This document shows, piece after piece, positions 16,190 through 39,500 of a stretch of DNA of 64,000 bases. A program made the translations under genes and the position numbers. How positions within the stretch are numbered: position 1 is the stretch's first letter; the number at the start of each line of letters is the position of its first letter. A model generated the notes under the pieces. That model was given only the letters and a program-made list of their open reading frames with translations, did not search any database and had not been told where the DNA came from. Source of the stretch: Diadophis punctatus similis. Taxonomy: Eukaryota; Chordata; Lepidosauria; Squamata; Dipsadidae. The stretch spans positions 4,908,501 to 4,972,500 of the forward strand of contig JALIGW010000029.1 of assembly GCA_023053685.1 (NCBI GenBank), written 5' to 3'.

Positions 16190-19100
16190 ACCTCATCCAT
16201 CAGCCAATGAGGACTGAGTCTGTTAATTAGAAAAGTCCGCCTCCGTCTCTTACGCCTGCTTTTGACTCAGTCCTCAGACTGACAGGTCAAGTTCTCCCTT
16301 CTGGATTACAGCTCCACTCAGTTGGACAGTTAAAGGTCTTTTTCATCTGATCTTCTTACCGTGAGTCTTCCTCCCCCAGTGTGCTCTTCAATCACGCCGC
16401 GGAGTAGAGACAACGTGGCAAAGGGAGCCTTGGCTCCAGCCGCTAAGGCCGTAGCCTCCAGCCGGGCAAGGTCCGGATCTCCACGCAAACAGGAGATTCC
16501 CTTAATCTGACCCCAGGAGCCGGTGGGGTTCCCTTAATATCATAGCGGCTTGGTTTGGTGACGCAGCGGCAGTGGCCGAGAGAGTTTTCCTGCTCCCGAC
16601 ACTATTATAGCGAGAGGACTTGCTGGAATGGCGATTAGACATTCAAATCGACCAGCGACTTTCCCGCTTAGACTTTACCACTTGTTGCAGATCTCACGCA
16701 CGAGCGACCGCCGGCCACAGAGTCTGGAGCTTTAAATTGCCGCGCACGGCCAGGGGAGCAGCGTCCTTCCAGAATACCATCAGTCGCACAGATATTATAC
16801 TCATGGCTCACTGCTTCCCCATCGGTTAAGGAGTCTCCTATTGCCGACCGCAGGTCCTGACATATCGGAGCTCCTCCGCGCAGCCGATCTTAATTGATCC
16901 AAGGACTGCCTGACAATTGTGGGCCTCCCTTAGCCGTGATTGCCGCAACGTTTAAAACCACTGGCCTCTAGCAAACCTAACAGGTGTCGCCTGCCGGGAC
17001 GCCATTTTCCTCACTAGACAGCTTCGCGTTGGGGGTTTCGCACCTTCTGAGGTTCGACAAAATGGCGCCACAGCTTTCACTACCGAAAGCCTCCAAATCG
17101 AGGCAGCAGAATAAACAAGCTTCGGAGGCCCCTCTGTCCCTGCCTGATCCCTGCCCCAGTACATCAGGGCGCCACTTAAAGGAAAAGGATCATCGGCATT
17201 CTAGTAAAGGGCATTCTGAGAAGCCCAGGCTCTCCAAGGCTACAGAGCGGGATGAATCCCGCAGGGACAGAGCACTGCAAAAGCTCTGTGAAAAATCTAC
17301 CACAGCCACTCCTAACCCCAGGGCCTCTTCTCCTCTGTCAGGCCAGGGGTTCCCATTGACCTTGGCTCCTAGCCAGGGGCCCCTTCAGGCTGAGGACCAC
17401 AGGGACAACATCTCCCTGGATGCCCCGGGTCTCCCTCTGGCGGATTCAGATATCTGGGGACAGCATGAGCCTCCACCAACAGGGAGCGCCCTGCAGCACA
17501 GGCCTCAGCCAGAGCTACCGCCACCTTTACTCCAACTGCTGCCGACCTCTGGTCCTTGACAACAGAGGGCTCCCAGGATCCCACCAGTGTCCAGGCCATG
17601 ATATCTGTGGCTATAAATCAGGGCGTGGCTGAATGCCTACAACAGTTGAACAGACCTGCCACTGCCGCCCTCCCCAGGATGTCTTCGGTTGATCTGGACC
17701 AGGACTTCCCGGCTGGGGCGTTCCAGTCTCAGGAGTGGCAACATCTTTCTCCTGAGCGATCCATGGGCTCTCATTCTGTTCTTTCGGACGAGGAGGGCCG
17801 TCTTGATTTAGACCTATCTGAGGATGAGGGCATCCTACCTGATCCTCCAGTCTCATCGGGACTTTTCCACCAGAGCCTCTTCAAGTCACTCCTATTTAAG
17901 GCAAAAAATGTTGCAAATTTGAGACCCTCTGCCCTGGGTACTTCTGCTTCCTCTCAGAACCTCCCTGATCCTCTGTTCACAGAGCATAACCCGGAGTCCC
18001 AGGTCCTTCCCTGTCTGCAATTATTCGTGGACGCCGTCCTCAAGCAGTGGAGTGCTCCAGCTTCTGGACCCATTCCATCATCCAATGATCATCGTTATTT
18101 CAATATCGGGTCAGAGTTGGCGCCTTCCCTCCAAACTCCATCGGTGGATGCTCCGGTGGTGGCACTCCTCTCATCCACCCATTTACCGGGCGATCCCGCA
18201 GAACTGTTGCAACCAGAAGACAGACGGATGGAGCAAGCGCTCCAAAAAACCACCAGGCAGCAGCTTGGGTGGTCAGGGCTTCAACCTCCACCTCTTTCTT
18301 CACTCAAATGTCCCTCATTTGGCTCTGGGATCTCCAAGAAAGACTGCCCGCCTCCAACATCAGGGCTCATCAGGATATTAATAAACTTCTGGCTGCCGCC
18401 CAGTTCTCAGCAGACGCCACACTTCAATCGGCTAGGTTCGCCTCCAGAGCCATGGGATCATCAATAGTGGCACGCAGATTACACTGGCTTTGCAATTGGC
18501 AGGCAGACACTCGCGACAAATTGAGCCTGGCAATGGCCTCTTACAACGGCTGCCAGCTGTTCAGGGAAGCCTTGGACCCAATCCTGGTTGAGTCCAGGGA
18601 TAAGCGGAAGGTCCTTCGCTCCCTTTCCAGAAGGAGCTCCTTTCACTCTGGCCCCTATTCCAGGCGGCTATTTCGAGCTCCAGACCCTGTCCCCTCATAC
18701 CCCAGGCCTTCAGGTCAGTATGGGTCTAGACAGAGGCAATCCCAGGACAGGACAGGCAGAGGTAGGCAATTTAAACGGCCCTTTCAGGGTGGCGGGGGTC
18801 GCTCCTTTCGTCACACAAAGTGAGTCCCCGGACGGTCCTCCCATTGGCGGATGTCTGGTGCTTTTCACCAGCAGGTGGGAGGACCTTACATCTGATGCAT
18901 GGGTCAGGGAGATGGTTAAATTAGGCCTCTCCCTAGAGTTTCTCTTCCCCCCTCCCCCCGAGGTTTTTTATCAGGTGCCTTTGTCAAATAATCCCGACAA
19001 GCGGGTCTTCATGCAATCTGCCATCCAACACCTGCTGGCATCAGCAGGTGCCTGATGACCAAATTGGGCAGGAGTTTTAATCCATATTGTTTGTAGTTCT

Positions 19101-19600
19101 CAAATCCTCGGGAGGGTGGAGAGCTATTCTCAACTTAAAAAGGTTGAACCATCACATCAGATACAGATGGTTCAAAATGCACTCACTTCACTCCATCTTG
19201 GCCTGCATTCGAAAGAAGGATCTCCTCGCCTCGATCGACTTGACGGAAGCCTACCTCCACATTCCGATACTGCCCTTACATCGGCAGTATCTGAGATTCT
19301 GTTACGGTGGCGTCCACTACCAGTATCGGGCACTCCCGTTTGGCCTATTGTCCGCCCCAAGGGTGTTCACTAAGGTGCCGGTGGTGCTGGCGGGTCATCT
19401 CAGGAGCCTTCCCGTGCGTGTCAACTGTTACCTGGACGATATATTAATTTTATCATCCTCCATGCACCAAGCCGTGCAGGATCTCCAGGTAACCATTAAC
19501 ACCCTCAGACACCACAGGTTCTCGGTTAACCTTTTGCCCTTATCTTGCTTGGCGGGGGTGACAACGCACTCCACATGTAGTGTGGCAGTCACGGCAGCCT
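16190..19600 (+). mobile_element. DIRS-type retrotransposon, 3'-truncated (gag and reverse transcriptase)
   Basis: GC-richer than its surroundings. A 5' leader begins near short inverted motifs (GAGGACTGAGTC at 16210 and GACTCAGTCCTC at about 16264). A gag-like frame starts near 17062 and continues across frameshifts near 17556 and 18270. It contains the DIRS gag landmark region around 18400-18820, ending in an Arg/Gly/Gln-rich basic tail. An overlapping frame from about 18790 carries reverse transcriptase with the motifs DLTEAYLHIPI, LPFGLLSAPRVFTK and catalytic YLDD at about 19430-19441. The element stops near 19590, before RNase H and the tyrosine recombinase. It is a dead copy. Confidence 0.85.
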
Positions 19601-20076
19601 GGTCCAGGAGTCGGCAATCTGCGGCTCTTTGGGCCCCCTGCTGTAGCTCCCTATCCCATCACTGGCTGGCCTCGACCTCTCCTCACTCACCTGGCCTGAG
19701 AAGGTAAGGGTGACGGTGTGAATGGAGAAGTGGCTGGGGCTGATTCTCTGGCGCTGGTTGAGGAACATAGCCACCCTCGGCCGAAGCTTCTCTTCAGGCG
19801 ACTTCCTTCCCCTTTCACGACTCGCTGGCTGGCTGTGGTGGGGCCAGGAGTGTGCGCATGCGTGGGGAGACCCCCAAGCGAGCGCCAAAACACAGTGAAG
19901 GTGCGCTCGGAGGGCGGGCAGCTGCTCGCTTAAGGATGGTCTTTGGACATGGCTTCTCTCCTGCCCTAAGGATCTGGCCATTGCCTTGCTGTCCCGTTCC
20001 TCCCCCCACCCCGCAGCTCTTTGGCCGAGGGGGTGGGCGTAAGCTCCAGCCCGAAGCAGCAGGAAGCAAAGGGTAA
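19600..20076. mobile_element. Probable truncated hAT-type repeat abutting the DIRS break
   Basis: GC-rich sequence begins GGAGTCGGCAATCTGCGGCT, resembling the terminal sequence of a known vertebrate hAT-derived repeat. No matching right terminus or target duplication was found. The composition is unlike the AT-rich sequence that follows 20076. Confidence 0.45.
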
Positions 20077-22559: not shown

Positions 22560-23539
22560 GGTTGTTTTTTTGCATACATTTTGTTACCCAGGCAAGCAAC
22601 ATCTTCAATGCTAAAAGTGGCTGTTGTTTACTGTTTGATTGTTTGTCTGAGTTGGTAATCCCTTGATTGGGGAATTGATTACCTCTTGACTGTTGGTCTG
22701 CTATTAATTTTGGTATTAATCCCTGCTTATCTGAGTGTTGCTGGTGAGGTGTTTTTGATCTTTTGTTTCCTTTGTAGCTTTTTGATTGTCTTTTTTGATT
22801 GATATGTAAATGTTGCTTATCTCTATGTGCCTGCTGATGGCTAATTTGTCTCAGTACCAGGCTTCCAGGAATTCTCTAGCATGGGCGGGGGGGGGGGGCG
22901 CTAGCTTGGTCTAGGATGCTCATAGTTTTCCAGTTGAAACTATGCTTAATGCTGTCCATGTGTTGTGCAATTAAGGAGTTTTCATCATGTCTTCTGACTA
23001 CTAGTTGGTGTGCATGGATGCAGTCTGCTAGTCTTCTGCTCGTCTGTCCTACATAGTGGTTGTATTACAGTCCTTACATTGTAGATTGTAGATGATTCCT
23101 GTTCTTCTGGCTACAGGGTCTTTTGATTTACTTAAAATATTTTGGAGGGCTTTAGTTGGATGGTGTGTTACTATGATGCCATGTGGTTGCAATAGTCTGT
23201 TGTTTGTTTCTCATATGTTTTTGATGTATAGCAGTGCTATCTTTTTCATAGCTTGTGTTGGTTGTGCTATAGAGGGTTGAATGGTTAGGCGCTTTTTGAT
23301 AAATTTACATGGGATCCATTTTGTTGCAAGATGTTGTATAAGGGTTCTGTTTCCTTTTCCTGATGTCCAGGGTTGCTGCAGTATGTTTGTGTTAATCTAA
23401 ATCAGTGTTTCTCAAATAGTGGGGCCCGCCCCCCTGGGGGGTGCGCGGAGCGATGCCAGGGGGCACGTGTGACCCCGGGGAACATGCGTGGTCCCTCTCG
23501 ATCGATTCCCCTGGATGGGGAGTGTTTTCCCAGTTGAAC

Positions 23540-23627
23540 GCTGCTCCGAGCCCGGAAGAGAAGGCAGCCGGGTGGGGCGGGGTAGTTGCGTGGGTTCTTG
23601 TTGTTCTCGGCGGGCGCTGCGGTAGCC
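23540..23627 (+). promoter_or_regulatory. EAF1: Probable captured EAF1 5'UTR or promoter-proximal DNA
   Basis: GC- and CpG-rich sequence lies immediately upstream of the captured EAF1 ATG (for example CGGCGGGCGCTGCGGTAGCC), unlike the AT-rich surroundings. It is inferred to be EAF1 5'UTR or promoter from its position. The exact left edge of the captured block is not determinable here. Confidence 0.45.
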
Positions 23628-23730
23628 ATGAATGGCATGGCGAACCTGCTGCTGGACAAGGAGGAGCATCCTCTGCAGCTGGGTGAAAGCTTCGAACGGC
23701 ACCCTAAAGCCTCCTTCCACACCATTCGCT
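23628..23730 (+). pseudogene. EAF1: Captured first coding exon of EAF1 (ELL-associated factor 1)
   Basis: From ATG at 23628 the frame reads [20 protein letters not shown] then [14 protein letters not shown]. This closely follows the N-terminus of vertebrate EAF1 (MNGTANPLLDREEHCLRLGE in human). The match stops at CGCT, directly before a perfect donor GTGAGT at 23731-23736. That is where EAF1 would split its next Tyr codon. Past the donor the frame runs into unrelated residues and stops. An exon plus intact donor means the copy came from genomic DNA, not from spliced mRNA. EAF1 normally partners ELL in transcription elongation complexes, but this 34-residue piece cannot make that protein. EAF1 rather than EAF2 was chosen by N-terminal resemblance. 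Confidence 0.85.
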
Positions 23731-24415
23731 GTGAGTGCCCGGCAGAGGCGGCGCTTATGGGCCAGGCCGGCGACCGCAAAACATCGGCTTGATTAAGCTG
23801 GCCTGGCCCCGTGTCAAAAGAGGGCCCTAACCACGGTTAGGTCACTAGGTGAACCTAAGGCTCAGATTCTCTCCATACAGTATTTGTGAAGTCCTTTCAA
23901 TTTTGTTATTCCACCCAGAGGAGTAAATTCCTCTGGTTTTGAGAAGATAAAGGCATGAAAAATACATAGACCATGTTGGTTTTTCAGATCCAGGCAAAGA
24001 CCAAATTATTTTTACTATTATTTTTAATAGAGGGGAGAAACAAAGAGATAGAGGGTAAATTAAAAAACAGACCAACATATGGAAAAATTGCTATACAGTT
24101 AATCCTTGTTTAGCAACTACAATTGGGGCCCAGATTGAAGAGTTGGGGGGGGGCGCAAAATTTTTACTTCTTCCGGGGGGGGGGGGGGTAACAGAAAATA
24201 ATTGAGAAGCACTGATCTAAATAATGTTCTTACACAGCTTCTCTTATGGGAGAACAATACTTCCCCACTGCTAAATGGTTCCATGAGCTTCTGAACAAAG
24301 TTGCAATGACAAAGTGCAAGTATATCGTTATTAAGGAAAATGTTTGAATATCAAATGCAGTTAATAAACTTGAGAGAGTGATTCTTTTTGTTTTGGATTG
24401 CTTTTCCTTGTACAG

Positions 24416-24537
24416 GTGTCCAGGACTCAGCTTTTACATCTCCCCAATCATACCCATTTACAATGTTGTGGTCTTCCTTTTTGTGCTGGCCAACTTCAGT
24501 ATGGCCACTTTCATGGATCCTGGCATATTCCCTAGAG
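24416..24537 (+). CDS. ZDHHC5: ZDHHC5 coding exon 2: TM2 and following loop
   Basis: Acceptor TTGTACAG and donor GTAAGC. It begins with the third base of a split codon and ends with the first base of the next. It encodes 40 residues from [10 protein letters not shown] to FMDPGIFPR: the extracellular loop and second membrane helix, ending in the D-P-G motif that follows TM2 in DHHC enzymes. Confidence 0.93.
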
Positions 24538-27500
24538 GTAAGCATGGTTCCGGTTTCTTGTAAATCATAAATCTAAAAATGGAGATTATGACTATGGTTA
24601 TTTCAGTTTTTCATCTGTGAGGCATTTTCTTTTTTACATCTGTATAAGATTTTTTTTTTCACAATGTAGGTAGTCTTCAACTTAACAACCATTCATTTAG
24701 CGATTGTTAGAAGTTATAATGGCACTGAAAAAAGTGATTTACAACCGTTCCTCAGATTTATGATTGTTGTGGCGTTCCCCACAGCCTCATGATCAAAATG
24801 TGGGTGCTTGGCAACTGGCATATATTTATGATGGCAGCAGTGTCCCAGGGTCACATGATCATCATTTGTGACTTTCACAGCTGACTTCTGACAAGCAAAG
24901 TCAGTGGGGGAAGCTGGGTTTGCTTAATGACCACACAATTTACAACTGCCATCATTCACTTAACAAATATGGCAAAAAGGTCATAAAATTGGCTGCAGTT
25001 CACCTAATAACTGCCTTGCTTAGCAACGGAAATTGTGTTACCTGTAACACAATTACTACCTGTAAAAATGCAAATATTTGCCTTTCTAGTATAGGTCCAA
25101 GAGTGAATATTAAGAATTTTAAATACTTGGTCAGTATTATTGGAAACCAGGACCATATTTGCCTAAGGCAGTAAATTGGAATTTCTCAGTTTTAGCAGTG
25201 AACACGTAGCATTGCTCTTTTCCTTTATTGCCTGGTTCCTTTTGCCAGGGAATCTGATTTAACAGGCTTGGTTATGATTATTGGTGTATTGCTTACATTA
25301 TATAATCCATGTTGTCTTGACTGCTTCAGTCAACAGCTTATAAAATTAGTCTTTGATGTATGACCACAAGGGAGCCAACATTTCCATTGCTAAGGAAGAC
25401 AGTTGTTAAGCGAGTTGCTCTCCATTTTACAACCTTTTTGCCACAGTTGTTCAGTGAATCGCGCAGTCCATAAACAAATTGACTTCACTTATTAGAAGCT
25501 GGCTGGGAAGGTTGCAAATTTTGGTCACATGACACCGGGACAGTGCAGTCATAAATACATGCCAGTTGCCAAGCGCCCAAATTTTGATCACGTGGCCATG
25601 GAGATGTTGCAATAGTCATAATAGCAATAGCAATAGCACTTAGACTTATATACCGCTTCATAGTGCTTTACAGCCCTCTCTAAGCGGTTCACAGAGTTCA
25701 GCATATTGCCCCCAACAATCTGGGTCCTCATTTTACCGACCTCAGAAGGATGGAAGGCTGAGTCAACCTTGAGCCAGTGAGATTTGAACAGCTGAACTGC
25801 TGAACTAGCAGTCAGCTGAAGTAGGTTGCAGTGCTGCTTTTAACCACTGCGCCACCTCGGTGTGAGAACCAGTCATGTCACTTTTTCAAGGCTGTTGTAA
25901 CTTTGAATGGTCATTAAACAAACAATTGTAAATAGAGGACTACCTGTAATCAATTTTGGTTTCAGCATTCTGAAAAAAATCTCGCTCGCCATCAGTATAA
26001 CTTATTTATCATTACAAATCTGGAAGGTGGAAATATATTGATTCTGGGGGTTGTTTTTTTCTTCCTCTCCTATTGCATTTGATGGCTTTCTTCTGCTTTA
26101 GCTGAAGAAGATGAGGACAAGGAGGATGATTTCCGAGCTCCCTTATACAAAACTGTGGAAATAAAGGGTATTCAAGTGCGCATGAAATGGTGTGCAACAT
26201 GCAGATTCTACCGGCCCCCACGCTGCTCTCATTGTAGCGTCTGTGACAACTGTGTGGAGGTAAGAAGATAAAATGAGAAAAGAGAGCCCGACTAAAGAGA
26301 TTGGAAATGCTTATTCTACATGGGATGTTGTTTGGCATAATCTGGGCTGCTTTTAATCAATTCCAGAACTTGAGTATTGAGTGTCAGGTTTTATAATGTA
26401 ATCTTGAGAAAGAAAAAGGGAAGGAGAAGGGAATAAGGGAACTCACAGGACTTTCAGAAGGGGTGGTGGTGTTAAATCTGCTGTTCCTTTTTTCCTTTTA
26501 TGTCACCTTTTTTCCTGAAATAAGCTTTTCAGATTCCTCCCACCCAGCGTTTGAACCAGAGGTGGGTTCCTGCCTCTGATTGCCGGTGCGGTTAATCGCT
26601 GAGTTCGGCGCAGAGCCGAAGACGGTGCTCCCGTTCACGGAGCGGGAGCTTTCCCCGGGCGCTTTCCCCGCCCGCATGGATGTCGCCAATTGCGTTCTTT
26701 TGCCCTCTGTGCATGCGGAACACTTTGGGCATGCGCAGAGGGCAGAAGAACGCAATTGGCGGCATCTATGCGGGCGGGGAAAGCGCCCGGGGAAAGCTCC
26801 CGCTCCGCGAACGGGAGCACCGTCTTCGGCTCTGCGCCGAACTCAGCGATTAACCGCACCGGCAATCAGAGGCAGGAACCCACCTCTGGTTTGAACGGCC
26901 CCAGACCTGCTTAGCTTCAGTAGGATTGGAGTTTCACCTGTTTTCAGATTAGACCTTAGTCACAGGATATATATAACCAGTCATTGAATGTAGGTTTATT
27001 TTTCTTGTCTTCGGGCAATACCAATTCATATAGGCCACCACTTAATTAATTATCCAAGCTCAACACCAAAGTTGTCAAATGCCACAAGATGCTCCTTCTA
27101 AAATACCGGGGCTACTCTAAAGATAGCACTGAGAATTTGTGGACGTTCAGAGTAGGGTTTAGACTGGCAGGGCCAAAAAAGGATTGTTTTAAACTTGTAT
27201 AGCAGGGTAGCTCTGCAGATTAAAAGCATCTTGGAAGGAAAGCTCTTCAGTTGCAAAAATCCGTTTGCCAAAATGATGGGGGGAGGAAATACAGAGATGG
27301 AAAATACAGAGATGGAAATACAGAGATGGAAAATGGGTTGGAAATACAGAGATGGAAAATGGGTTGCCTCAGATGTAAACCTAGGAAGACATTGATATTT
27401 TCACTGGCTAATATGGGGGTGGGAAGGGGAATGCAGTTCTTAAAACAGCGTCTGAAGGAAGTTATTCATCTGCCAAGGAGGGAAGCATTCCAAGAGTCTT

Positions 27501-30500
27501 TGACAAAAAGTGGGGTTACGCTTTCACGGTTGTTTCATCATAGTCAGTGTAGACAGAACATTGTTTTGCTTCAGAATTCCACTCTGGAGCTGAAGCAAGG
27601 AAAAGTTATCTGAGATGAAGCAAACTCTTTGAATCGGGTTTTCTCTGCTGAGCAATTCCACAGTAATGTTTGGGAACATGTTCAGTAACTTTGTTATTTC
27701 TGCTTGTGAGGCCTGGGAAATTGGCTAGATGTTACAAACTGTATACAGAGTGATTGTAGAAGAATGCATATGCTGACATTCTTTATGTCAAAACTCATCT
27801 GTCTGTCTATACACACATACACGCACAAACACACAGAATACATGAAAAAAGAGGAAAGGCATAAGGTCAATCAGATCAAAGGTCTACGAGTTCATTGTGG
27901 CTATACCATTCTTACGGGAGTTACATTTCCATTCTATCATGAATGGAAATAAATACTTGAATTGTTGTCAGATGTGCTGTAGTTTAAAAGGATTTTATTA
28001 ATAATGTAAAACTATAGCCTGGCTTTCTAGAGGGATTATTTTCCTAACCTTTTTTTTTAAATGGAAGGAATTTGACCATCACTGTCCATGGGTGAACAAC
28101 TGCATAGGAAGACGCAATTACCGCTACTTCTTCCTGTTCCTGCTCTCACTTACAGTACACATCATGGGTGTGTTTGGTTTCGGTTTACTGTATGTCCTAT
28201 ATCAAGTGGAAGAGCTCTCTGGAATCCGCATGGCTGTTACGTATCCTTTAATCTTTCCCCCTCCCCCCAAAAAATCCACCACTTTTGACAGCGCGTAAGT
28301 TGATGGCTGACCATCAGAACATCACAGAAAAGTGGATGGAGGCGTGGAATAGCTGCACCCCCCAAGATGTCTCTGGGCACATTAGCCCTAGTAGTATACC
28401 TCCAGGATTTGGCCTACCCCGATACATGTGGGTGACATATAATAGAATTAGAACAACTCATGGGGTGTGTGCTGACTCCTTGCATAAATGGGGAAAGACA
28501 CCTTCAGCACAATGTGATTGCGGGGCTCCTCGACAGACTATTCAGCATATAGTGAGGGAATGCCCTAACAGAAGATATCCAGGAGACTGTAGGGACTTCC
28601 TCTGCACAACAACGGCAGCTACTGACTGGATCTCCAAACTTGATATTAAGCTTTGCAATGTTATTTCTGTTTTCCTTTTTTTAGGTTTTTCTTACTGTTT
28701 TAACTGTTTTTAATTTGTAAAAATGATGTTTTTTAATATTGTGTGTGACCAGCCATACGCTAAATAAAATAAATTCCCCCCCCTTCAAAAAAAGGAGCTC
28801 CCTGGTAAAAATGAACCCTGGCGAGGAATTTTTAGATCTGCTTAAGACAGTGCCACCTATCAGGTGGGAAATGAATCTCCAGATAAGAAATGAATTGTGA
28901 TCCTTCAGTATTGTTCCTTGACTTTGCTGCAGTATGGCCGTGATGTGTGTGGCTGGTTTGTTCTTTATTCCTGTAGCTGGCCTTACAGGATTCCATGTGG
29001 TACTAGTAGCCAGAGGTCGCACTACCAATGAACAGGTATGTATTTCCCATTTTGTTTTGTTGTTCATTTCACTGAATGAACCACTGAACCGGTTTTTTGT
29101 CTTTGCAGGTTACAGGCAAGTTCCGAGGTGGGGTAAACCCATTTACCAATGGCTGCTGTAAGAATGTCAGTCGTGTCCTCTGCAGCTCTCCAGCTCCCAG
29201 GTAAATTCTTTTCCACCAAAGTAAGATGGAGAAGAGGAGAAATGAGAATTACTGTCTTCATTGTTAGTGTGAGAAGTGAGAGGAAGTTTCTCATGGCTAA
29301 CTGTCCCCAAGGTGCTTTATCAAGAGGCAACTGGACTTTCTGGACCAGAAAGCCTAGTTGCCTCTTGAAAAAGCACTTTGGGACAACCATGACCTGGATG
29401 ACTGAGAATCTCCATAGATACGGTTAACTGTATGAATGATTCAGCAAGGAGATGCTGGGTTGCAGAAAGCAATGGCTAACAAATCATTTTAGTTCTTAAT
29501 CATAGTCTCTTAGAATGGGAAACTCTAGGATTCATCAAAGTAATTCCCTTGCTTGGTACAGGAGGTATTAGAGTATCTCTGACAGATGACCATCCAGTCT
29601 TTGTCTGAAGACTTCTGAAGAAGGACTCACCATTCTATGTGGCAATGTGCTTCATTGGCTGATACCTTGTATGGGCAGAAAGTTTCCTCATGTTGTCTAG
29701 GTTGAACCTCCTTCCTTATAATTTAAACCTTCAGGTAGTCCTTGAGTTACAATGGCAATTGAGATTGGAATTTCTGTCACTAAGTGATGTGGTCATAAAG
29801 TGAAACCTCACGTTACCGTATTACTCAGCGACAGCAATTTCTTCAGTCTCTTGTTATCATAGTTAAGCAAGAATTATGGATTCTTAAGCTGTAACTTCAT
29901 CACAACTTCTTGTTGGCTTCCAGCAACCAAAATTAGTGGGGAAGCTGGCAGGAAGTTGCAAGTTTCAGGTGTCTTGTAAGCAAGTGGCAGGCAGGTAAGT
30001 AAGTGGCTGCTGCCAGGGAGAGAGGGAGCACACACAGTTGTGTAAGTTGGCCAGAAAGGCCCAATCTCAACAAGGCTTGGGAAGAGCGTGCAAGGACACA
30101 CAAGGGGACAGGGAGGTGTGGCACAAGCACAGTAAGGCTTGGTGAGCATGCGTGGGTGGTTGGAAGGCATAACTGCAGAAAGGCTGGGGGAAGGTGAATG
30201 GGTGGGGGAGTTACCCAATCAACTTCCAACTTTCTCTGCCCACTTCCCCATTGACTTTGCTTGTGGGAAACTGGCAGAGAAGGTTGCAATTTGCAATCAC
30301 ATTACCACAAGATGCTGTAAGCACCTAAGTGCTAAACCCTGAGAACCACTGGAACTTCAAAGACTGATTGTAACCACCACTCTTCAGTGCTGTGGTAACT
30401 TCAAACCATTGCTGAACAAGTAATTGTTAACCAAGGGCTACCTGTATTCTCCAGCTCGTAGCAACAGAAGAAATCTATCTGGCTTCTGTATGACAACTCT

Positions 30501-36500: not shown

Positions 36501-39500
36501 TGGCACTTGAGAAAAGGATTCAAGGAGACACGCAGGGCTACATTGAAACATCTAGGACATCCACACTGTTTTCCCTTTCTCTTTACAGATAGCAGTTTGC
36601 TAAGTAAGGACAGCCCTCCAACTCCAACCATGTATAAGTATCGACCTGGCTATACTAGCAGCAGTGCTTCAGCTGCAATGCCTCACTCCACCAGTGCCAA
36701 GGTAAATAAGCTTGCTTAGCAGGAAGAATAGACTGGTAGATGAACATACAGGGGGATTGAAAGGGAATTTGGTTTGAGACTATAACGCCTTAATTGGATT
36801 GATGTACATTTTACTAAAAGGTGGGGTGGGGTTGGCAGACTTCAGACTTGTTGGCTCTGCCTTAGTTTTTACTCGAGCTCTGAGACCTACTAATTGGAGC
36901 AGATGAAAAAATGATGGATCAAGGAATCGAAATAGTCATCTGTTGAATAATGTATAGGGGGAATATTTTACATATATAAATATAATTCTTATTTCAGAAC
37001 AGGACTGTTAATCTAATTAGAACTGAGAAGTAGACTTGTTTAATCATTTGATTTTGGAGAGCATTAATGAACATTTTCCAGAGATTTTTTTCGCTGATTG
37101 CTGCTCTGTAAAATACTTACTCTTATGCCAGAAATACAGAACTCTAAAAAGATATTTACAAATAGTCCTCAATTTAACAGCAGTTTATTTAATGATCATT
37201 CAAAGTTACAATGGCCCTGAAATAGCACTTGCAATAGCACTTAGATTTATATACCGCTTCACAGAGCTTTACAGGCCTCTCTAAGCGGTTTACAGAGTCA
37301 GCATATTGCCCCCAACAATCTGGGTCCTCAGTTTTTACCTCAAGCTTCTGAATGAAAGTGGGATAGAAATTCAACAAACAAATTAACAAAATTTCAGCTG
37401 TTGTCAACCATAGAATCATTGCCTGCTCATGTTTAAATTTATGTTAACCATAATTGCATCGGAAGCCAAATTAGGTAGTCGGGCTGCAGCAGCCAGAATG
37501 TATTCTATTTTCCCATCGTTTTGCTTCCCTAATTGTCCACTCATCCCTTTTCTTCCACCTTCTCCTCCACCCAAATGGTAATATAGGATGTCTCATCTTC
37601 AGACTAGCTATGTAAAACATTTGAAATATTTTAAGGTTTTGTATGATTTATTATGTATTTAACAGTTTTTTAAAATTTATTGTATTCTGGCTTACCATAC
37701 AATTTTGATGCCCTATGAATTGATTAAATAATTATAACAGACTCGGCTTAGAAATATAACCGAACCCATCTCATCCACAGCATTTATAGCTGAGGTCGAA
37801 TTTAAATATATATATCCTAGATCAGTGATGGCGAACCTATGGCACGGGTGCCACAGATGGCACGCGGAGCCATATCTGCCGGCACGCGAGCCATTGCCCT
37901 AGCTCAGCTCCAGCGCGCATGTGCTTGCCCGCCAGCTGATTTTTGGCTCGCACGGAGGCTCTAGGAGGGCGATTTCGACCTCTGGAGGGCCTCCGGGGTA
38001 ACAGGGAGAACATTTTCGCCCTCCCCAAGCTCCAAGAAAGCCTCTGGAGCCTGGGGAGGGCAAAAAACGGGCCTACCGGGCCCAGTGGAAGTCGGAAAAT
38101 GGGGGAGTGGGGGGGTCGCGCATGCATACGCAGGGGGGTGGGGTGAGTGGGGGGCTTTGAATTATGGGTGTGGGCACGCATGCACGTACAAAAGCGCGCG
38201 TGCGCACTATTTCGGCACCCGAGGAAAAAAAGGTTCGCCATCACTGTCCTAGATCCATATTCAAGATCGTGTTACATTATGCTGATTTTCAATAAGTGAA
38301 TTACTATAACATGTATTTGAATAACTTGCAAATTTTCAATCTCTATATTGAGAAAATCATTTTCCTTCTGATATGCCTATTGGATGCCTTGAAGAAGCAG
38401 ATAACATAATTTATTTTTCAGTTCTTATACAGAGCCTAAGAAGCTATTGAATGACTCCTGTATCTTTTATTCCCTATAACAGCTAAGTCGAGGTGACAGT
38501 TTGAAGGAGCCAACAACTATTGTTGAAAGCAGCCGAAACCCCAGCTATCGCTCAGAACCAAGTCTGGAACCAGAAAATTTTCGATCACCCACCTTTGGCA
38601 AGAGTTTCCATTTTGATCCTCTATCCAGTGGTTCCCGCTCTTCCAGCCTCAAGTCAGCTCAAGGCACAGGCTTTGAAATGGGCCATCTTCAGTCAATCCG
38701 CTCCGAAGGCACTACTTCCACATCTTACAAAAGCTTGGTGAACCAGACACGCAATGGGAGTTTGTCATATGACAGTCTTCTCACACCATCTGATAGCCTT
38801 GATTTTGAGTCGGTGCAGGCAGGTTCAGAGCCAGACCCACTCATGGGATACACTTCTCCTTTTCTTTCAGCCCGTATTGCTCAACAGCGGGAGGCTGACT
38901 TGCACAGTCGTTTTCCAAGCTCGGGTTCACCCAAGCACCAGCAACCTCGTGATTCTTCACCCGTCCGCTATGACAATCTTTCGCGCCATATTGTGGCTTC
39001 CATGCAGGAACGGGAGAAGTTGCTACAGCAGTCATCTATGCCACCACCCCTGGCCAAAGAGGAAGATATAGGCCTAGGGGACTCTGGGATACAGTCCACA
39101 CCAGGGTCCAGCAATGCCCCACGAACGAGTTCCTCTTCGGACGATTCAAAACGTTCACCTTTGGGCAAAAACCCACTCACCCGCCCAGTGGCACCTCGCT
39201 TCGGCAAACCAGAACCACCACATGCACTTAGAGTGCGCGCGCTGGGCTCACCAGACCAGCTTTCATCCTCCCACATGGGCAAATCTATGTCTTACAGCAG
39301 CCAAAAACAGTCGCCTCAGGCTGTCGTCCCAGAGACTGAGGAGGTGGCCTTGCAGCCTTTACTGGCACCAAAGTAAGTACAAGTGACACTTGTCTTGTTC
39401 TTTAAGTGTTCCTTGACTTAGTGGAGGATGAACCACATTTAGATCTGCCCCACCACTGCTCTGGCAAAGGATTCCAAGATAATTGTGATTCCTTCCAGCA

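Follow-up and report, generated by a model that had tools for sequence, protein, structure and literature searches.

The window, by which we mean the whole 64,000-nucleotide stretch of Diadophis punctatus similis DNA that was analysed, holds a short transposon inside which lies the 5' end of EAF1, a host gene. We consider it very likely that a Buster-type hAT element captured this 5' end from the host lineage's own EAF1 at the DNA level and was afterwards spread in trans. The copy in the window sits in an intron of another gene, ZDHHC5, on the same strand as that gene; the element is followed after 201 bp by the exon for ZDHHC5 residues 36-75 (24416-24537, plus strand).

The window copy is a non-autonomous hAT element of 812 bp (23403-24214). 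As the earlier note had claimed, its borders are exact: it has terminal inverted repeats (TIRs) and a perfect 8-bp target-site duplication (TSD), ATCTAAAT, on both sides (23395-23402 and 24215-24222). The TIRs, CAGTGTTTCTCAAATA and TAATTGAGAAGCACTG (CAGTG...), are complementary at 14 of 16 positions and are short, as in the hAT superfamily. Helitrons have neither TSD nor TIR, and the presence of both excludes the element from that group. Read along the plus strand, the element begins with an 83-bp hAT 5' terminal part that includes the TIR and has no match to native EAF1 (23403-23485), followed by captured EAF1 upstream and 5' UTR DNA with a CCGGAAG motif and a GC box (23486-23627), the captured first coding exon of 34 codons and one nucleotide, ending in phase 1 (23628-23730), and the captured 5' splice site GTGAGT with the first bases of EAF1 intron 1 (23731-23752). 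The CpG-rich character that had been noted upstream of the exon is evident in a GC content of 0.63 and a CpG observed/expected ratio of 0.78 over element bases 136-435. Beyond the donor lie a stretch that is common to the long and short forms of the element and lacks a match in the native EAF1 locus (23753-23837), 284 bp found only in the long form, which is the minority (23838-24121), 14 bp, ATTGGGGCCCAGAT, identical to native EAF1 intron 1 (24122-24135), and the hAT 3' terminal part with its TIR, TTGAGAAGCACTG (24136-24214). The 14-bp match has an E value of 0.057 when taken alone in the window copy and is part of a 19/19 match in the consensus of the short form. The hAT ends are defined solely by their TIRs, by the TSDs and by their absence from EAF1. 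Directly left of the element, on the minus strand, is a segment (22940-23395) that by eye resembles a fragment of a Penelope-type element.

The coding part had been likened to the first exon of EAF1, and comparison with proteins and with the native gene bears this out. The 34-residue peptide of the consensus aligns with the first 34 residues of ELL-associated factor 1 in a PDB search (E = 1.2e-11), and a Pfam search with a 36-residue peptide, which is a short query, returned no match. Identity of the consensus peptide to EAF1 is 33/34 in Crotalus and Ahaetulla, 30-32 of 34 in six other squamates, 31/34 for the protein of the same genome and 25-26 of 34 in the two mammals compared (Castor and platypus). 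Chance similarity to EAF1 is rejected by the E value together with the match to the native locus.

This native locus, L079 on contig C386, aligns with consensus positions 84-350 over native positions 1879-2143, where 250 of 268 columns are identical and 4 are gaps; identity over these columns is 93% for the consensus and 90% for the window copy. The captured block consists of 139 native bases 5' of the ATG (1879-2017), the 103-nt exon 1 and the GTGAGT donor, which at 23731-23736 of the window falls exactly on the native exon 1/intron 1 junction, so that the donor is intact as previously described. On the 3' side of the donor are three non-adjacent pieces of EAF1 intron 1, namely consensus 471-523 (native 2159-2211, 52/53), 524-578 (native 2390-2444, 55/55) and 577-595 (native 2544-2562, 19/19, with two bases counted twice), the last of which includes the 14 bp seen in the window copy (native 2548-2561). 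All four native matches are collinear and on one strand. The locus has no hAT ends: in 7 kb of native sequence, on both strands, no TIR-like site with two or fewer mismatches was found, the single site with three mismatches equals the number expected by chance, and neither hAT end has a match in L052, the locus of native exon 1. The earlier claim that a hAT-like transposon had captured the 5' end of EAF1 is upheld by this comparison, and only the extent of the similarity needs correction, from 23540-24100 to 23486-23752 with the 14 bp at 24122-24135. Two outcomes that would speak against capture, dissimilarity of the native locus and a full EAF1 pseudogene running past the TIRs, were looked for and were absent.

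The consensus of the short form is 669 bp long and comprises 83 bp of hAT DNA, 512 bp of captured DNA and filler, and 74 bp of hAT DNA. Consensus positions 351-470 (120 bp, the first 85 bp of which occur in both forms) have no match in the native EAF1 locus. A few codons of this stretch are resembled by a Laticauda protein, P0122, that is apparently native exon 1 read into intron 1, which hints faintly that the native EAF1 intron may have lost the stretch in this genome; otherwise it would be filler from elsewhere. Although the consensus peptide is nearer to the EAF1 of colubroid snakes than to that of its own genome, the near-identical intron pieces argue for a source within the own lineage. 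Codon 4 of native exon 1 (L079 2018-2119) is L and codon 28 is S, the latter being A in the element and in all eight squamate proteins compared; the transposon seems to preserve the older state of this codon.

We searched the genome (1.78 Gb, 419 contigs) with the window interval 23403-24214 and with the EAF1 protein, and found a large family of element copies. With the window interval, the best 40 of 2,527 first-look candidates were scored and all 40 are elements, the weakest still matching at 92-93% over the first 435 bases. With the protein, the best 150 of 1,252 candidates were scored, and the matches listed comprise the first three native exons (C386), a single C1 locus, probably EAF2, where a different part of EAF1 is matched, and 146 scattered places that match EAF1 only from residue 1 to at most residue 47. 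The two lists share 5 places and give at least 181 distinct EAF1 exon-1 places on 38 contigs. A Chapman estimate from the two lists suggests that the family probably totals about 1,000 copies, a rough figure because both sets are top-scoring lists and not random samples. Of the 181 places we read 65 (the 40 matches to the window query and 26 of the 146, with one in common), and 65/65 are element copies; the remaining 116 are known only as exon-1 matches. The 26 fetched exon-1 places all contain the EAF1 core, with at least part of the hAT 5' end in 25, the 3' end in 24 and both ends in 23. That other copies might carry the same block had been put forward conditionally, and the places read do carry it between the same ends, the promoter activity of the block being putative.

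Evidence for transposition comes from the sequences flanking these copies. For a first batch, 39 other copies were fetched with flanks and both ends were placed in 37 of them (not in L011 and L016); L036, with a spurious far end, was dropped, which left 36 other copies with usable ends. The 8-bp TSD expected of a hAT element is perfect in 23 of these, matches at 7/8 positions in 9 and is without a match in 4 (L012, L027, L029 and L047). Counting the window copy, 37 copies have usable ends, and all 24 of the perfect TSDs among them have the form nnnTAnnn. The second batch consists of the 14 loci that lie on the plus strand and have both ends, to the exclusion of 9 minus-strand loci; with shifts of the ends by up to 3 bases permitted, it gave 9 perfect TSDs, 2 at 7/8, 2 at 6/8 and 1 at 3/8. 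TA occupies positions 4-5 in 7 of these 9 perfect TSDs; the two that are off the pattern, L063 and L069, may have misplaced ends. The pattern nnnTAnnn is described as the TSD of Buster-type hATs in the available part of the source (PMC3517528), and by its target site the element is Buster-type. A tree of 37 copies (without L011, L016 and L036) is star-like, with 1 of 34 inner branches well supported under bootstrap values that are unsettled. Divergence from the consensus at non-CpG sites is 0.8-4.6% by segment among 35 short copies, a slight overestimate since the table includes L036 with its far end set by hand. Separate TSDs, a star-like tree and low divergence fit a recent burst, and in the copies read the family is large and young. 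Segmental duplication was rejected as an origin of the copies, whose TSDs and flanks differ.

Two forms of the element make up the family. Among the best 40 matches, 5 are long and, as in the window copy, span almost the whole element, apart from one in which the first 44 bases are missing, and 35 are short, sharing bases 1-435 and differing in the middle. Within 720-812, 34 of the 35 short copies also match, one of them over 30 bases only; the short copy at C1:133573205 has no 3' match. The fetched exon-1 places include one long copy in 26 (L053), which is one of the same five. The 284 bp at 23838-24121 of the long form take the place of about 145 bp of the short form (consensus 436-580), largely EAF1 intron 1. 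This segment is 91-95% identical to that of the four other long copies but matches nothing in the native EAF1 locus. The window copy is a rarer, rearranged member of the family.

The relation between the forms bears on how the capture took place. The block of exon and upstream DNA differs from the native gene by substitutions in 14 of 264 ungapped columns and the intron pieces in 1 of 127, which may mean two captures; the short form may have visited the EAF1 locus twice. It is possible, though we think it the less probable course, that an older long Pack-hAT took up the promoter and exon-1 block and that a later element, primed by its homology to EAF1, copied the intron-1 pieces and so gave rise to the short form. 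Besides the unequal divergence, such an order would agree with end branches of 0.075, 0.076 and 0.12 in three of the four long copies on the tree, above the median of 0.048 (window copy 0.034), and with codon 7 of the long copy L012, which is CCA and thereby nearest to the native CCG, whereas the other four long copies have CTG and the 34 short copies have CTG (32), TTG (1) or a gap (1). However, the two forms are not separated on the tree (4 changes, with 500 of 500 shuffles as low), 7 of the 11 differences between the long and short consensus in their shared part are plain G/A or C/T, and the long form retains the 14-bp intron match by its 3' end, as would be expected if it had been derived from the short form.

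We therefore return to capture by a hAT element as the preferred reading, in which the element would have taken up promoter-proximal DNA, the first coding exon, the donor and discontinuous pieces of intron 1, the content and collinearity of which are seen in the alignment with the native gene. The intron pieces are joined with native segments skipped, and one join has a 2-bp TT overlap; because of this joining and skipping, we infer template switching or gap repair between a hAT copy and the EAF1 locus. The resulting Pack-hAT of about 670 bp would have been mobilised in trans, presumably by a hAT transposase, and would have reached what we estimate to be hundreds of sites in a recent burst, and a rearranged member would have landed in the ZDHHC5 intron as the window copy. 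Each copy could be a portable first exon with a donor and no known acceptor, and most copies would probably be methylated, silent passengers.

The state of the captured signals was read from 40 aligned copies, which are the best matches to the window copy and hence a biased sample. The donor GT is retained in 40/40 of them, GTGAGT in 38/40 and an open frame from ATG to donor in 38/40; the CCGGAAG motif survives in 26/40 and GGGGCGGGG in 21/40. Divergence at CpG sites reaches 10-22.5% in five CpG-rich segments, mostly through transitions, against the far lower values at other sites given above, and is 7.4% in a segment with a single CpG. This fast decay points to germline methylation. Change at codon positions 1, 2 and 3 is 1.4, 1.1 and 1.5% at non-CpG sites and 4.3, 1.9 and 3.5% at all sites, where position 2 is lower; this comparison, in which only the CpGs of the consensus were masked, reveals no clear selection on the captured 34 codons. 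Together with the CpG decay, this indicates that most copies are probably silent.

One predicted protein bears on possible use of the captured exon. P0126, a 548-aa prediction from the snake Erythrolamprus reginae named 'solute carrier family 2, facilitated glucose transporter member 5-like', matches consensus nucleotides 82-345 with its residues 1-88 (77%, 68/88, ungapped) and continues after residue 88 as a sugar transporter with a Sugar_tr domain. Its codon 7 is L, the mark of the element, where most EAF1 proteins compared have P, and so it belongs to the same element family and is not a new capture. It is the only chimera among the 19 matches of a search that covered proteins of about 215-685 aa; P0121, from a 1,165-base contig, is a read-through of the short form. 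We regard it as quite unlikely that many copies are active promoters, give nearby genes chimeric transcripts and have been retained on that account. An ATG and donor that are intact in most of the 40 copies sampled would suit such a role, as would a predicted protein that starts with the element read straight through, but P0126 is a gene prediction whose junction falls beyond the GTGAGT donor, where the site is non-standard, and both the CpG decay and the near-equal change across codon positions speak for methylated copies under no clear constraint. From sequence comparison we would suggest, tentatively and as a rather doubtful proposition, that some 1,000 copies of an EAF1 promoter, start codon and donor have been seeded and that some may now be new first exons in more than one species, with the SLC2A5-like gene of E. 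reginae as the first candidate.

The EAF1 exon of the window copy ends one nucleotide into a codon, whereas the ZDHHC5 exon that follows it most closely starts at a third codon position. Splicing the two directly would break the reading frame, which would be kept by a splice to the ZDHHC5 exon after that (near 26101). ZDHHC5 exons extend across 24416-29201 on the plus strand, with further exons presumably at 38480-39376 (plus strand), and within the window the upstream DNA yielded no exon for about residues 1-35. Other repeats on the plus strand include a GC-rich block with long ORFs (16981-19707), one of which matches reverse transcriptase PF00078 (E = 1.5e-15) and marks a retroelement that from its ORF layout we assume to be DIRS-like, and a 153-aa ORF (28252-28713) that by eye resembles the tail of a non-LTR retrotransposon protein and has no Pfam match.

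Insertion of a processed EAF1 transcript into a hAT element, for which only the presence of coding sequence could be cited, is ruled out by the intron-1 matches and may be put aside with near certainty, since upstream DNA, an intact donor and intron-1 sequence are all included, the consensus has no match to exon 2, and the earlier preference for genomic capture over retroposition is thereby sustained.

Elements of this kind are known in animals. Tan et al. 2021 (PMC8277862), in the part of their survey available, count 370 Pack-TIRs in 100 animal genomes, of which 208 are hAT and only four are multicopy; their multicopy hAT example has three copies and the polymorphic fly family Ssk-FB4 four. 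The parallel with the 'Pack' elements of plants drawn in the earlier note thus holds in that the element is a Pack-hAT; the animal class is already described there, as mostly single-copy. The EAF1 element shares with Pack-TIRs the TIRs and TSDs around a piece of a host gene and an identified parental locus free of the transposon. Both its ends flank 512 bp of non-TE DNA (100-5,000 bp in the survey), its parent matches at 93% in the core and 98-100% in the intron pieces (at least 90% in the survey), and its intron-1 and upstream DNA set it apart from a retrocopy. The captured length is 75% of the native span (512 versus 684 bp) because native intron segments were skipped, and lies outside the survey's 80-120%, a filter for recent, simple captures and not a structural feature of the class (PMC8277862). 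Template switching has been proposed there for multicopy Pack-TIRs such as Pack-hAT-N8_XT, which carries the CAPSL 5' UTR. What differs is the scale and the cargo, with at least 181 places and about 1,000 estimated copies here, bearing upstream DNA, a start codon and a donor; the copy number is far above the few copies that the survey, as available, reports for animal gene-carrying cut-and-paste transposons.

The survey found gene-carrying TIR transposons to be rare and nearly always single-copy (PMC8277862), so that the wide dissemination of promoters and first exons seemed a speciality of Helitrons. A Pack-hAT with a known parent, exact junctions and many young copies offers a test of cut-and-paste capture through its mosaic joins, and the family also allows the silencing of a captured CpG-rich 5' end and the frequency of chimeric genes to be tested. 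We found no report of an EAF1-carrying transposon in the open-licence literature. Among other systems, in each case from the available part of the source, Mar of Drosophila is likewise a short non-autonomous Buster-type hAT with nnnTAnnn TSDs, but is attributed to an internal deletion within the transposon, whereas the EAF1 element is largely host-gene DNA (PMC3517528). Turmoil-1 of C. elegans is also an animal transposon that has taken up protein-coding sequence, which in its case lies in inverted repeats (PMC2572040). A further counterpart is HelibatN3, a bat Helitron that amplifies the NUBPL promoter, six codons and a splice donor and traps downstream exons; fifteen captured promoters together have 4,690 copies in Myotis lucifugus (PMC4778049). 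Both are vertebrate transposons amplifying captured 5' DNA, N-terminal codons and a donor, although HelibatN3 is a rolling-circle element with 6 aa, while the EAF1 element is a cut-and-paste hAT with TIRs, 8-bp TSDs and 34 codons, known from DNA (PMC4778049). The element is a Pack-hAT of unusual copy number, one that may be regarded as analogous to HelibatN3 with NUBPL: it belongs to the Pack-TIR class and has the cargo layout, and perhaps the scale, of HelibatN3.
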